From Pyrinomonadaceae bacterium (GTDB lineage Bacteria; Acidobacteriota; Blastocatellia; Pyrinomonadales; Pyrinomonadaceae), in assembly GCA_026129865.1 (NCBI GenBank), contig JAHCHG010000006.1, forward strand, positions 62,001-126,000: 64,000 nucleotides of DNA, in the 5' to 3' direction. Under the pieces are notes generated by a model. It ran no database searches, was not told the DNA's origin, and was given only the letters and a program-made list of their open reading frames with translations. Made by a program: the position numbers and the translations under genes. Below are positions 14,918 to 32,667 of the stretch, piece after piece (the first letter of the stretch is position 1; every line of letters begins with the position of its first letter).

Positions 14918-17347
14918 TTACTCTGAGCTTGTGTCGATCTTTGCCAGGATCTCTTCGAAACGGGGATCGGTGCGGAGCGGTTTCAGCATTTTATCGTTTT
15001 CGTACCAGGCTTTATTCTCATTTCCGAGTTTGATCGCGCGTTCCATCCAGTAAAATGCCTGATCCAGATCGCCGAGCTGGGCGTTTGCCGAGGTCATCCA
15101 GTAAGCCATGTCATGGTCGGCTTTTGCAAGGTTTTTCGCTTCGTCTGTCAACTGGGCGCGAGCTTCTTCTTTGCGGTCGCAATGTGCGAGGAACATCGCG
15201 TAAAGCGGGCGAATTCCGTCCATCTGGTCGTTTTCGTCCAAAACCTTTTTCATCATCGCCAGCGCTTCTTGTTCCTTTCCGGAATAAAGCAGGACGGTGG
15301 AACGGAAAATTCTGATCAAAGGATGATTCGGTTCGAGCTTTGCACCTTTGTCTAGCTCGACGACCGCTTCTTCATATTTTCCCTGATAAAGATAGATCCG
15401 CGCCTGATTATAGCTCGCGACGACGCGGGCGGCTGGGTCGAGCCGGACAAGCTTTTCCCATGCGTGAATCGCCTCGTCATATTCGCCGTCGAGCCGGTGC
15501 ATTGTGCCTTTTACAAAATAAAGCGGCGCTTCGTTTGGAAATTGTTCTTCGAGAATTTTGATCTCGGCGCGCGCCTTTCTTTTCTCACCGCGCGACAGAT
15601 AGATCAGGATCATCAAAACGCGCGCTTCGACGACATTCGGATCGTATTTAAAAGCTTTGCTGAACGCCGTTTCCGCGTAGGTATAATCTTCAGCGTCGCC
15701 CATTCCCTTGAAAACGCGGTTCGCGTAACATGCGCCGAGTCCGCTGTATGCAAGCGCAAAGTGCGAATCGAGCTCGATGGCGCGTTTGAAGTTTGCGATC
15801 GCAGCTTTGCAGTCGTCGTTAGAAACGGTTCGAAAGATAAACCGCCCGAAATTATCGCGCCCGCGCAGATATTCTTCATATGCTTCGGCGCTGTCCGTGG
15901 CGCGTCGACCAAGTTTTTCCTGCTCGCCGGTCGAAAGTTCAAGTCGAAGTCCTTCTAAAATGCGCATCGCGATCATATCCTGCAGCGCCAGAATATCTTC
16001 GCCCTCGGCATCGATCCGGTCGCTCCAGAGAATGTCGCCTGTTACAACGTTTAGCAGCTGAGCCGTGACACGCATTCGGTCGCCGGCGCGAAGGAAACTT
16101 GCCGAAAGCACGGCGTGAACACGAAGTTCGCGACCGACCTCGCGCGGGTCGAAATCTTTCCCCTGATATTTTGCGATCACCGAAGACGGTCTAACGATCA
16201 GCGATTTCAGCTGCGCAAGTTCCGTAATTACAGCGTCGGCAAGCGCAAATTCATAAAAATCGGACGCCGGATCCTGACCGAGATTTTTGAAAGGCAAAAT
16301 AGCTACTGTTTTCTTTTCGTGCCCGCTCGCTGTAAACGTCGTGTCCGGAGAATAGGTCGGTGTGATAGCACCTGACGGCGTGTTATCGAACGATCTGTCT
16401 GCCTGCGATTTGCCGGTCAGCCAATCCCAGGCTTTCTTGACCGGATTTTTGTCCTCGATGTGCCCGGGTTTGAAAGTATCGCCCTGTAAAACCGGGACTC
16501 CGGAAATTTCCTGTAAAACGGCACGAAGGTCGTCTCTCATATCTGCAATTTTCTGATAACGGTCTTTCGGATCTTTCGCCAGTGCGCGGTCGATGATCGG
16601 CTGAAGACCCGGCGGAATCGGCTCCGGACGCAGATCTGCGATCGGTTTCGGAGTTCCATGTAAAACTTTGTGGCGGACGTCGATCACAGTTTTTCCCTGG
16701 AACGCCCAAATACCGGTAAGCATTTCATAAAGCAAAACGCCGGTCGAAAAAATATCCGCCCGGTGGTCCGTTTTTTCGCCTTTTGCCTGTTCCGGTGCAG
16801 CGTATGTCGCCGTGCCGTAGGGAACGCCGAGCTCCGTCAGATCTGCTTTATCGCCGTCGCCCTGCGATTCGCCGGTTTCCATCATTTTGGCAAGCCCAAA
16901 ATCAAGGATCAACGCCTGTCCGTTTTCCTTGACCATGACGTTTCCGGCTTTTATGTCGCGGTGAATAATGTTTAAAGAATGTGCGTATGCGAGCGCGTCG
17001 CAAACCTGGATGGCAATGCTTAAAGCGCTTTTCAGATCGAGCGGACGTCCGTTGACAAGCTGGCGGACGTTTTTGCCCTTCACATACTGCATCGCAATAT
17101 AAAAAACGCCGTCGTCCGAGTGGTAATCATAGATCGTACAAACGTTTTGATGATCTAACTGCGAACAAAGCTGGGCTTCTCTAGTAAATCTTGTAAAATT
17201 TGAAGTTCGGGCGGTAAGCTCGGGCGGCAGAACCTTTATCACTACGAGTCGGTCAAGCTTAGTGTCACGGGCTTTATAGACTGTGCCTTGACCGCCCGCA
17301 CCGATTTTCTCCAAGATTTCGTATTGATTAATTTTCGAGCCAACCAT
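14918..17347 (-). CDS. Ser/Thr protein kinase with TolB-like and TPR domains
   Basis: The 809-residue product has an intact Hanks-type kinase domain at residues 8-275: glycine loop GAGGQGTV, Lys38, HRDIKAGN with Asp131, DFG at 149-151 and an APE segment. After a linker rich in Ser, Thr and Pro comes a TolB-N/FlgO-like domain (about 345-480, beginning KTVAILPFKNLG) and then several TPR repeats up to about 790. There is no transmembrane helix, so unlike many bacterial PknB kinases it is soluble. It probably phosphorylates partners recruited by the TPR part. Neighbours give no clear target. Confidence 0.88.
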   Translation of the reverse strand: MVGSKINQYEILEKIGAGGQGTVYKARDTKLDRLVVIKVLPPELTARTSNFTRFTREAQLCSQLDHQNVCTIYDYHSDDGVFYIAMQYVKGKNVRQLVNGRPLDLKSALSIAIQVCDALAYAHSLNIIHRDIKAGNVMVKENGQALILDFGLAKMMETGESQGDGDKADLTELGVPYGTATYAAPEQAKGEKTDHRADIFSTGVLLYEMLTGIWAFQGKTVIDVRHKVLHGTPKPIADLRPEPIPPGLQPIIDRALAKDPKDRYQKIADMRDDLRAVLQEISGVPVLQGDTFKPGHIEDKNPVKKAWDWLTGKSQADRSFDNTPSGAITPTYSPDTTFTASGHEKKTVAILPFKNLGQDPASDFYEFALADAVITELAQLKSLIVRPSSVIAKYQGKDFDPREVGRELRVHAVLSASFLRAGDRMRVTAQLLNVVTGDILWSDRIDAEGEDILALQDMIAMRILEGLRLELSTGEQEKLGRRATDSAEAYEEYLRGRDNFGRFIFRTVSNDDCKAAIANFKRAIELDSHFALAYSGLGACYANRVFKGMGDAEDYTYAETAFSKAFKYDPNVVEARVLMILIYLSRGEKRKARAEIKILEEQFPNEAPLYFVKGTMHRLDGEYDEAIHAWEKLVRLDPAARVVASYNQARIYLYQGKYEEAVVELDKGAKLEPNHPLIRIFRSTVLLYSGKEQEALAMMKKVLDENDQMDGIRPLYAMFLAHCDRKEEARAQLTDEAKNLAKADHDMAYWMTSANAQLGDLDQAFYWMERAIKLGNENKAWYENDKMLKPLRTDPRFEEILAKIDTSSE

Positions 17348-17592
17348 ACGTTGTTTGGATTTGAATAACTACTTCTTGGTTGGATTCAATTCGGGTTCAA
17401 ATTCTGTGAATAAATAATGAAAGCGAAGCTTAAAATTATTAAAAAAACTGAAGTTCAATCAAGCCAAGATAACAGACCTAAGAATTCTCACCCATCGAAC
17501 AATCAATGTCAATTCACCTAAAATGAAATAATATCGCACAATATTTTAGACTGTTTTAACCGGCAAACTGCCGGTTATTCCGGTGTAACCGT
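17348..17592. other. Non-coding gap between glutaredoxin and kinase genes
   Basis: Both flanking genes read on the - strand, so this should hold the kinase promoter and the glutaredoxin 3' end. An 8-bp perfect hairpin (AACCGGCA-AAC-TGCCGGTT) lies at 17558-17576. It is followed by A rather than T residues on the - strand, so it is not a convincing intrinsic terminator. The rest is A+T-rich without recognisable structure. Confidence 0.35.
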
Positions 17593-17814
17593 TCAGCCGC
17601 GCAGCGGGTCGCCCCAGCCCGATTGAATATGTTCGCCGTTTTCGACAATGCACGGAACAACCAGATCGCCGCCCGAAATTTCCAGCATTTCCCGCTTTCG
17701 CACCGGGTCGTCCTGGGCGTTGTATTCGATAAAGTCGATCCCGTGCTCGGTATAATGATCGCGGGCTTTGTCGCAATATGGACAGCCCGGTTTTGTATAA
17801 ATTATTAAAGACAT
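17593..17814 (-). CDS. Glutaredoxin family protein
   Basis: The 73-residue protein is a minimal thioredoxin-fold glutaredoxin. The dithiol site CPYC is at residues 11-14, VVPCIV carries the cis-proline (Pro54), and the GW close to the end is typical. Such proteins reduce disulfides or glutathione mixed disulfides in the cytoplasm, or act on peroxiredoxin-like partners. It stands alone on the - strand and is divergent from the 2Fe-2S gene at 17959. An overlapping frame at 17546-17776 is a shadow. Confidence 0.87.
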   Translation of the reverse strand: MSLIIYTKPGCPYCDKARDHYTEHGIDFIEYNAQDDPVRKREMLEISGGDLVVPCIVENGEHIQSGWGDPLRG

Positions 17815-17958
17815 TTAAGTTTTTCTCCCAGGCTTTATTCTAACAAATACGACCTGAATCGAAAAAGCGTCGATCAATTTGCATTTGTTTACCATCATCG
17901 TAAATAAGCCTTATCATTGCCATTGGACGAAAACGGGTTTGAAAGTTAAATTTACAGA

Positions 17959-18318
17959 ATGAAATTGGAAGACTACAAAGATGTATTCGAACCTTTCGAC
18001 CGGCTGGTCGAGATAGAAATTCTCGGAATCAAGGTAAAGGTTCCTGAAAACAACACATTGCTTCGCTGTTTTCAATTTCTTTCGATCGAAACGGTCTCGC
18101 TTGGAGATTTTTGCTGGAACGGCGACTGCGCCAATTGTCGCGTATGGCTGGAATCGACTTCCAAGGATAAACCGGTTCTATCATGCCGCACGACCGTGAA
18201 AGAAGGTATGAAGATCGTTAAAATGGCAGACGAAATTTCTCTGAAACCGTCGGGTGACGATAAATCGGAAGTTGTGCTCGATGATTACAGAGCAGTTCCT
18301 TCCGATTCGATCTTTTAA
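17959..18318 (+). CDS. Small stand-alone 2Fe-2S ferredoxin-like protein
   Basis: The 119-residue product has four cysteines, Cys52, Cys57, Cys60 and Cys76, in a CX4CX2CX15C layout close to the N-terminal 2Fe-2S domain of succinate dehydrogenase iron-sulfur subunits rather than to plant ferredoxin, whose last spacing is much longer. The surrounding FCWNGDCANCR is a good match to that domain. No other cofactor domain is present, so it probably shuttles electrons between partners not encoded nearby. It converges on the rhodanese gene with only 3 bp between stops. Confidence 0.75.
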   Translation: MKLEDYKDVFEPFDRLVEIEILGIKVKVPENNTLLRCFQFLSIETVSLGDFCWNGDCANCRVWLESTSKDKPVLSCRTTVKEGMKIVKMADEISLKPSGDDKSEVVLDDYRAVPSDSIF

Positions 18319-18321
18319 ACA

Positions 18322-18642
18322 TCAATATTTCGGCACGGACGAATCGATCTCCTCCGACCAGGCATTTATTCCGCCGCGCAAATTTTTCATCTCACCCGTA
18401 AATCCGGCTTGCTGAAGAGCCATGATCGCCCGTGCACTTCTGCCGCCGGCGTGGCACTGCATGATCAATTCCTTCGAATCGTCCAACTCGTCGCGCCTTT
18501 TGACAATTTCCGCAAGCGGAATAAGTTTTGCGCCTTCGATCCTGGCAAATTCAAATTCGTCCGGCTGACGAACATCGATAAGTTGTACGTCTTCGCCGGC
18601 ATCCATTTTCGCTTTCAGCTCCTGAACAGTAATTTCCTGCAT
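18322..18642 (-). CDS. Rhodanese-like domain protein
   Basis: The 106-residue product is a single rhodanese domain: LIDVRQPDEF near residues 21-30, then the active-site loop CHAGGRSA with Cys63, and the closing GGINAW. A one-domain rhodanese of this size usually handles persulfide sulfur in the cytoplasm, for example in sulfur delivery or detoxification. Its start ATG has a GGAATT-type upstream region, with no strong Shine-Dalgarno. Neighbouring glutaredoxin and 2Fe-2S genes suggest a local redox or sulfur theme, which is an inference. Confidence 0.87.
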   Translation of the reverse strand: MQEITVQELKAKMDAGEDVQLIDVRQPDEFEFARIEGAKLIPLAEIVKRRDELDDSKELIMQCHAGGRSARAIMALQQAGFTGEMKNLRGGINAWSEEIDSSVPKY

Positions 18643-30790: not shown

Positions 30791-30849
30791 AGAAATCTTT
30801 ACCAAGCCGCAGAAATTCGAAAATTCGACGACGGCTATGTTCAAAATAA

Positions 30850-30877
30850 AAAAGACGGAGCGAACCCCGTCTTTTTA
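30850..30877 (-). terminator. Rho-independent terminator of the PilT-like gene
   Basis: AAAAAGACGG and CCGTCTTTTT form a 10-bp stem around an 8-nt loop, with a T run (CTTTTTTATTTT) on the - strand, about 20 bp after the stop of the PilT-like ATPase gene. Confidence 0.85.
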
Positions 30878-30897: not shown

Positions 30898-32667
30898 TTA
30901 CATCTTTATTCCTTCACGTTTCAGTAAACTTTCAAACGATGGCTTGTCGACCGCTTTGATATAAGCATCGCGCGGTTCGACGAGACCTTTTTTCACAAGG
31001 TCCATCAACGCGTCGTTGAGCATTACCATTCCATGCGATTTTCCGGTCTGCATTGACGAAGCAATCTGGAATGTTTTTCCTTCACGGATAAGATTTGAAA
31101 TTGCCGGCGTGACGATCAAAACTTCGAGCGCCGCTACGCGTCCGCCGCCTTTTTTAGGCAAAAGCGTTTGGGCTATTACGCCGCGCAGAGATTCGGAAAG
31201 CATTACGCGAATCTGCTGCTGGCGGTCGGCGGGAAATTGATCGATGATGCGGTCGACGGTCGACGCTGCCGTTGTCGTATGCAGTGTTCCGAAAACGAGA
31301 TGCCCGGTTTCAGCCGTCTCGATCGCGATTGAAATAGTTTCAAGATCGCGCATTTCACCGACGAGCAGAATGTCGGGATCTTCACGAAGCGCCGCGCGCA
31401 ATGCGTGTTTGAACGATCCGGTATGATTTCCTACCTCGCGCTGGTTTACAAGACATTTTTGATTTTCATGCGTGAATTCGATCGGATCTTCGATCGTAAT
31501 TATATGATCTTCACGCCTTTTATTGATCGAATCGACCATTGCGCAAAGCGTTGTCGATTTGCCGGAACCGGTCGGTCCCGTTACCACGACCAGACCTTTC
31601 GAAAGATCGCAAAGTTCCATTATCGCTCTGGAAAGACCGAGTTGTTCAGCTGTCAGGATGTCAGCCGGAATTATTCGAAAAACTCCGCCCATTCCTTTAC
31701 GATCGGCAAACACGTTTGCGCGAAAACGCGCGAGCCCCTGAATTTCATACGCGAAATCGGTGTCATGGCATTCGTCAAATTCGTCAAGATTTTTCTCCGG
31801 CATGATCGAAGAAAGAAGTTCACGCATCAAAGACGGCGTTAAAACACCTTCCGCACATTCGAGCTTCGCAATCCTGCCGTCGACGCGCACCATCGGCGGC
31901 ATCGAAACGCTTAAATGCAGATCCGACGCGCCGATCGAAGCCATCCGGCGAAACAGATTGTTCATGCGGTCCTGCGCTTTCGAACCCACCGGACTCGATG
32001 CGGCGGGTGTGAACGATGCATTTTCGTTAGAGCCGACCGACTCCGAAACAGGCTCGGCTGGTGAATCTACCACGGGAACATCAAACGATTCCGCGGATGG
32101 ACTTTCAAACCACGCTTTTGCTGCAGAAACCTCCTGAACGGACTCGACTTCCGCGTTGTCTTCGGCATACTGATATTCTGTATTGAATTGTCCCAAGGGA
32201 TTCCGGTTGGCGAAGTTTTCGACGGTTGGCACTGCCGCATCTGCATCACCCGCTTGTTCAAATCCATTTGCCGACGGTTCCTGAAGATCCGAAACCGCAG
32301 CGCGAATTGTTGAAGAAAATGGCTTCGGCTCTTCCGCGGCGGGCTCTTGCGGCAGGATGTCTTCGTTTAAGAGCGGTCGAATCGTAACGTTAAATCCGGC
32401 AGGCGATTTCTTAACCAGAAAACTAAAACTTCCGAGATTGTGATTATGGACAAATTCGACTTCGGATTGATTCGGAAGCTGCTGCTTGACCGCGGGCGGA
32501 ATTAGCGGAAATACGATCGTCGAGATCTGCGTTCCCAGCAAAGGCGTGTTCGCCACTTCGGTCGTTCCGCTGCCGTCGATCATATACGGAGTCTTATTCG
32601 GTTCAAGATGCAGTTCGTAACCGCATGCAGACAAAAGGGTTTGCAGATATTCGCTAAGTTTTTCCAT
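30898..32667 (-). CDS. PilT-like ATPase with duplicated N-terminal domain
   Basis: The 589-residue product ends in a normal PilT retraction ATPase. Its PAS-like N-domain is at about residues 232-335 (GASDLHLSVSMPPMVRVDG), with Walker A GPTGSGKS at 364-371, Walker B and His box in GEMRDLETISIAIETAETGH, and a tail QTGKSHGMVMLNDAL. Before it, residues 1-100 form a divergent second N-domain (YELHLEPNKTPYMIDGSG), joined by an acidic, Ser/Pro-rich linker (101-230). Standard PilT has about 350 residues and one N-domain. No other pilus gene is in the window. It may drive pilus retraction or a type II secretion-like motor. Confidence 0.8.
   Translation of the reverse strand: MEKLSEYLQTLLSACGYELHLEPNKTPYMIDGSGTTEVANTPLLGTQISTIVFPLIPPAVKQQLPNQSEVEFVHNHNLGSFSFLVKKSPAGFNVTIRPLLNEDILPQEPAAEEPKPFSSTIRAAVSDLQEPSANGFEQAGDADAAVPTVENFANRNPLGQFNTEYQYAEDNAEVESVQEVSAAKAWFESPSAESFDVPVVDSPAEPVSESVGSNENASFTPAASSPVGSKAQDRMNNLFRRMASIGASDLHLSVSMPPMVRVDGRIAKLECAEGVLTPSLMRELLSSIMPEKNLDEFDECHDTDFAYEIQGLARFRANVFADRKGMGGVFRIIPADILTAEQLGLSRAIMELCDLSKGLVVVTGPTGSGKSTTLCAMVDSINKRREDHIITIEDPIEFTHENQKCLVNQREVGNHTGSFKHALRAALREDPDILLVGEMRDLETISIAIETAETGHLVFGTLHTTTAASTVDRIIDQFPADRQQQIRVMLSESLRGVIAQTLLPKKGGGRVAALEVLIVTPAISNLIREGKTFQIASSMQTGKSHGMVMLNDALMDLVKKGLVEPRDAYIKAVDKPSFESLLKREGIKM

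Follow-up and report, generated by a model that had tools for sequence, protein, structure and literature searches.

A predicted accessory PilT-type ATPase with a duplicated N-domain in Acidobacteriota

The window, a stretch of 64,000 nucleotides from a Pyrinomonadaceae bacterium (contig JAHCHG010000006.1, positions 62,001 to 126,000), encodes a PilT-family ATPase with two N-domains in tandem. The protein is probably an accessory ATPase of the type IV pilus retraction type, with an activity predicted from its motifs. The first N-domain (N1) is a duplicate of the normal PilT N-domain (N2) with a modelled PilT N-fold. We consider it likely that N1 acts as an N2-like domain on a tether, partly disarmed, which would dock or regulate a retraction ring.

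Gene structure and the ATPase core

The features of the gene are given below in window coordinates.

30898..32667, (-), gene of the tandem-N PilT-family ATPase, 589 aa (open reading frame; TIGR01420)
32368..32667, (-), N1, extra PAS-like PilT N-domain, residues 1-100 (hhalign, AF2, Foldseek and VIA-align)
32422..32430, (-), S80-F81-S82 of N1, matching R-F-R of N2 (hhalign register)
31975..32367, (-), linker, residues 101-231, predicted to be disordered, net charge about -17 (AF2 pLDDT and composition)
31666..31974, (-), N2, normal PilT N-domain, residues 232-334 (TIGR01420 from residue 235; AF2 pLDDT 85-96 over residues 231-330)
31720..31728, (-), R314-F315-R316 of N2 (conservation of both arginines among N2 rows)
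30901..31665, (-), RecA-like ATPase domain (CTD), residues 335-589 (PF00437; phmmer to P. aeruginosa PilT)
31552..31578, (-), Walker A GPTGSGKST (sequence)
31081..31104, (-), AISNLIRE, residues 522-529 (aligned with AIRNLIRE of P. aeruginosa and Geobacter PilT)
30849..30876, (-), weak terminator-like hairpin of 12 pairs just past the stop codon

The open reading frame, its coordinates and its strand had been given correctly in the earlier note, and the N-terminus of the protein is beyond doubt because an in-frame stop immediately precedes the ATG at 32667. The hairpin is regarded as weak, since the region holds three such sites whereas 4.6 are expected in shuffles. Membership of the PilT/PilU family is supported by TIGR01420 (pilT_fam), which matched residues 235-574 with 457.7 bits against a cut-off of 319.1; the model of the PilB extension ATPase (TIGR02538) reached only 136.4 bits, below its cut-off of 675.65. 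PF00437 was found at residues 347-505. The best PDB match by sequence was the P. aeruginosa PilT (3jvu, phmmer E-value 3e-115), ranked above PilU (6e-75). The catalytic motifs are intact, including the Walker A, the Asp box TIEDPIEF, the Walker B VGEMRD with the catalytic Glu, and the His box GTLHT. The AIRNLIRE motif is important for retraction, and the AISNLIRE of the window protein differs from it in one residue, in agreement with PilT membership.

By sequence, N2 and the ATPase core together make up a complete PilT. They resemble the P. aeruginosa PilT in this arrangement, in all the catalytic motifs and in AI(R/S)NLIRE; whereas the latter has one N-domain and about 350 residues, with neither N1 nor a long disordered linker. 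The usual PilT plan (a single N-domain and about 350 aa), which is typical and not strictly defining, is exceeded here by two N-domains and 589 aa. To our knowledge, the known PilT structures have a single N-domain, and a PilT with two of them was not found in the open-access literature searched.

The second N-domain and its linker

Residues 1-100 had been proposed in the earlier note to be a second, divergent PilT N-domain, and this proposal is backed by profile, fold and family evidence. A Pfam search with residues 1-134 alone gave no match up to an E-value of 10, MshEN included. The hhalign comparison of 20 N1 with 19 N2 sequences (the N2 alignment excluded L040, which has a deletion) gave a probability of 96.75, an E-value of 3.2e-10 and a score of 58.8, whereas 100 column shuffles reached at most 18.2 and the reversed control gave 10.7. 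An N1 profile free of N2 sequences also found the N-domains of separate ordinary PilTs, with E-values of 1e-11 to 1e-6 per genome. Structure prediction gave a PilT N-domain fold for residues 1-100, and no different fold was seen. The AF2 model of N1 from 33 sequences (L112, one of the 33 named loci, was omitted from the alignment) had a pLDDT of 90 and a pTM of 0.81, and N1 and N2 share the order of nine elements H-E-E-E-H-H-E-E-E. The top 30 PDB matches of N1 in Foldseek were all PilT or PilU (TMq 0.77-0.84, rmsd 1.5-1.8 Å, 14-20% identity); the VIA-align Z scores were 15.4-16.8 for PilT/PilU, against 13.9 for DotB and at most 12.7 for PilB. A chance resemblance between N1 and N2 was ruled out by the column shuffles, the reversed control and the fold matching.

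N1 is under purifying selection and is, from sequence comparison, conserved as much as N2. The identity to the window gene in eight relatives was 60-79% for N1 and 63-70% for N2. The dN of N1 was 0.136 and the dS 0.96 against L087, and dN was far below dS in these relatives wherever dS was estimable. Across the phylum, the surface of N1 shows little conservation: 17 rows had a mean column identity of 41% and no invariant columns, which makes one universal partner doubtful.

Some arginines of N2 are not kept in N1. Two arginine fingers are fully conserved in PilT-like ATPases; in PilB they are R271 and R286, which reach across the subunit interface to bind the Asp box and the phosphates of ATP (PMC5424180). 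By spacing, these map to R316 and R331 as the predicted arginine fingers of the window protein. PilT R81 and D32 are described as contacts between packing units in PMC6858323, and in the mapping made here they would correspond to R314 and D263. Arg is conserved in N2 at R314 (92/95 rows), R316 (93/95) and R331 (90/95), where the 95 rows pool two extractions and some proteins are counted twice. In N1, Arg occurs at residue 80 (the place of R314) in 2 of the 17 phylum-wide and 5 of the 33 family rows, and at residue 82 (the place of R316) in 4/17 and 0/33 rows, respectively. The place of R331 holds Arg (R97 in N1) in 6/17 phylum-wide rows and is kept in 29/33 family rows, so that the loss of the fingers is only partial. 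Both fingers together were found in two of the 17 phylum-wide N1 rows. By these counts, R316 (one of the two arginine fingers) and its neighbour R314, residues of N2 at the predicted intersubunit ATP site, are lost in N1.

The stretch between N1 and N2 is Glu/Ser/Pro-rich, as the earlier note had described (D+E 17%, S+T 18%, P 9-10% in the window protein), and its AF2 pLDDT was 31-45 over residues 101-220. Its description as an acidic linker holds for the family of the host (f1), where the net charge ranges from -6 to -34; whereas the linkers in f2, f3 and f8 are about neutral to slightly basic and Pro-rich. Acidity was therefore ruled out as a conserved linker trait, because the charge is not kept outside the family of the host. 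Within the otherwise variable linkers of L088-L119, a motif near VNDPEFxTxFSDxSTYEPP is conserved, which was detected in 23 of the 33 named relatives by HMM and in 16 by pattern. This motif was rejected as a general linker feature, since it is absent from the window protein and from 10/33 named relatives; no other protein carries it in the eight genomes searched. The linkers of L099, L103, L109 and L009 have a DRRxxDRR-like stretch directly before N2, which we take to be reminiscent of motifs near PilZ domains.

N1 might instead be a partner-binding N-terminal tier like the N1D of PilB, which would bind a cytoplasmic regulator or a small molecule and not the ATPase ring. PAS-type folds often bind ligands, and the linker motif resembles a peptide docking site. 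Regulatory N-terminal tiers are also present in extension motors; for example, an MshE-type c-di-GMP motif was found in the PilB of the same genome, and in the sister row L144 this position is taken by cNMP_binding and MshEN domains. However, N1 is matched by neither MshEN nor any other Pfam domain, it has no invariant residue phylum-wide, and the window protein lacks the linker motif. This possibility is therefore regarded as doubtful. The N-terminal tiers of PilB, MshE and GspE, members of the same ATPase superfamily, are likewise additional domains that precede N2; whereas they are of the MshEN/GSPII type, and that of the window protein is a copy of N2 itself.

Distribution, phylogeny and genome context

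A search for the same two-domain plan in other Acidobacteriota, which the earlier note had suggested, revealed a phylum-wide clade and not a one-off. A strong N1 (best E-value <= 1e-25) was found in 75 of the 162 genomes of the class by a profile search, counted by eye. Named records with N1 were obtained from a contig scan queried with the N1 of the host's family, with the surveys made within Acidobacteriota; they belong to Pyrinomonadaceae, other Blastocatellia or Acidobacteria MAGs, including Aridibacter famidurans and Chloracidobacterium sp. UBA3360. A wider N1 profile (E-value <= 1e-13) matched at most 112 of 396 genomes spread over the phylum, which is an upper bound for the tandem plan since five matches proved to be single-N when read (L133, L134, L135, L145 and L163). 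The tandem plan was present in 32 of the 40 phylum regions read directly (13/20 and then 19/20 in two batches), which were picked from strong or long matches and not at random. It was read in families f8, f12, f25, f29, f30, f32, f46, f61, f69, f77 and f81. Among the family genera, too few in number for mutual exclusion to be claimed, no overlap by eye was seen between the tandem-N form and the single-N PilT of 361-401 aa. In families f4, f6 and f7, none of the 11 genomes had a match better than 6e-28 (at most the strength of a PilB), and PilT and the tandem form therefore seem to be absent together.

Phylogenetic trees were reconstructed from the cores, with no PilU row included. In the tree of 69 cores, a clade of 42 rows (support 95/94) contained 41 tandem rows. 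This clade was placed inside the branch of the P. aeruginosa PilT (support 100/98); Geobacter PilT4 and the pil-locus PilT of this genome belong to a separate branch. Two tandem paralogs of f8 fell outside the 42-row clade on a long branch, and their placement is unsure; L140 and L141, whose shared branch is 4.2 long, were in the first tree and omitted from the second. One row inside the clade, L133, is an otherwise normal PilT without N1, which seems to be a loss. It could be taken as a sign that N1 is a neutral, functionless remnant of duplication; however, N1 is kept in many families of the phylum and is as conserved as N2, and such a remnant is very improbable.

The sister row of the tandem-N clade in both trees is L144 (G412, f33), a 627-aa open frame in which a PilT has N-terminal cNMP-binding and MshEN domains. 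From its domains, it may be a retraction motor that senses nucleotides. L144 and the window protein both have extra N-terminal modules on a PilT core; whereas these are nucleotide-sensing modules in L144 and a duplicated N2 in the window protein. The tandem-N PilT of L040 (G048, contig C139) has an N2 without its second half, joined straight to the Walker A, and a second copy of N1 is found at the end of the contig. This arrangement could be an assembly fault.

Among 31 other, larger proteins of the window that were scanned, none matched a pilus family at the E-values used, in line with the earlier note, which saw no pilus genes in view. The pilus partners were located elsewhere in the genome, which has four PilT-family and two PilB/GspE-type ATPases. 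Contig C19 carries pilB, pilT and pilC; its pilT, beside the other two genes, groups with Geobacter PilT4 in the tree and represents the housekeeping motor, and its PilB has the MshE-type c-di-GMP motif (62 bits against a cut-off of 38). Contig C2 carries another locus of the PilB/GspE type, which includes a pilin-like protein. Since pilB, pilT and pilC lie elsewhere, the window gene is considered an orphan accessory motor, and its link to pili rests on homology because no pilus gene is near it. At the contig C19 locus (L053, G000; 17126-18369), a MglB-like (Roadblock) protein and a small GTPase, read as MglA-like, adjoin pilB-pilT-pilC, which suggests a polarity control of pili.

No conserved operon with pilus genes was seen in the window or in the relatives' loci compared. 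One neighbour gene, presumably methylmalonyl-CoA mutase, recurs in 26 of the 45 relatives' loci (some genomes are counted twice) and is absent from the window; this looks like plain synteny. The orphan locus, with unrelated neighbour genes in the window and the relatives, might indicate that the protein is not a pilus motor and was recruited to another task. The co-transcription of Geobacter pilT1 with recA, as given in PMC5065972, was counted in favour of this reading. However, the PilT motifs are intact, including AISNLIRE, and PilT and the tandem form seem jointly absent from the 11 genomes of f4, f6 and f7. A non-pilus task is therefore considered improbable.

Tandem-N paralogs with damaged catalytic motifs, in which both N-domains are kept, were found in three lineages. 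In f30, L140 (G477) and L141 (G259) have about 775 aa with very degenerate ATPase domains, in which the Walker B and the His-box are unmatched, and linkers of about 320 aa rich in Glu, Pro and Ala. In f69, the Walker A Lys of L129 is replaced by Arg, and the His is kept, as GALHS. In f8, L039p and L165_o1 have GTLMT in place of GTLHT, and their N2 lacks the R331 equivalent. In both f8 genomes (L039 in G058 and L165 in G065), an intact single-N PilT adjoins the damaged paralog. The two-N plan can thus persist where catalysis is lost, which speaks for a structural or regulatory role.

These pairs in f8 are also relevant to a PilU-like role. PilU, a paralog of PilT, functions only in the presence of PilT, which may even be catalytically dead (PMC6821130, PMC13142100). 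The window protein might similarly depend on the housekeeping PilT for its action, with its own ring stacked on that of PilT and N1 as the clamp. Like PilU, it is an accessory PilT paralog that coexists with a housekeeping PilT in the genome, and the fold of its N1 matches the PilU N-domain (TMq 0.80-0.83 in Foldseek). However, PilU possesses only one N-domain, the core of the window protein is closer to PilT than to PilU by sequence (with the trees lacking a PilU row), and the catalytic motifs of the window protein look fully active. Such a helper role is rather unlikely.

Predicted role of the tethered N-domain

The favoured reading is that N1 docks or regulates the retraction ring. Six N2-ATPase units would form the usual PilT ring, and six N1 copies would hang on tethers outside it. 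N1 would act as an N2-like docking or decoy domain and not as a normal catalytic edge, since the N2 fold is kept without the full catalytic edge. It may bind an ATPase ring, belonging either to the protein itself or to the housekeeping PilT, or else some other component of the pilus base; this binding would recruit, stack or restrain the retraction motor. N1 would not be a second motor. In the full-length AF2 model (the truncated L092, L099, L112 and L117 were omitted from the 33 named loci), the ATPase domain was poorly modelled, with block means of 35-76 over residues 341-580, and the docking of N1 onto this domain is therefore unreadable.

A built-in decoy is also conceivable, and is unlikely in our estimate. 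The tethered, arginine-poor N1 would replace N2 on the ATPase domain, so that the packing units would be unable to fire. It would work as a brake or clutch, the strength of which would be set by the length and charge of the tether, and would represent a phylum-wide class. If this were true, N1 would act on its own ring or on the housekeeping PilT ring, and the tandem-N paralogs with catalytic damage would serve as brakes dedicated to the PilT of the adjacent gene.

The tandem-N design is widespread in the phylum, and its role may be in the regulation or docking of the motor. The presence or absence of N1 in one polypeptide offers a clean deletion test, and the damaged tandem-N paralogs bear on how PilU-type helpers act. 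A duplicated, partly disarmed and tethered N-domain, which is kept across much of a large and little-studied phylum, suggests an extra layer of retraction control that has no described counterpart in the Pseudomonas, Vibrio and Geobacter models.
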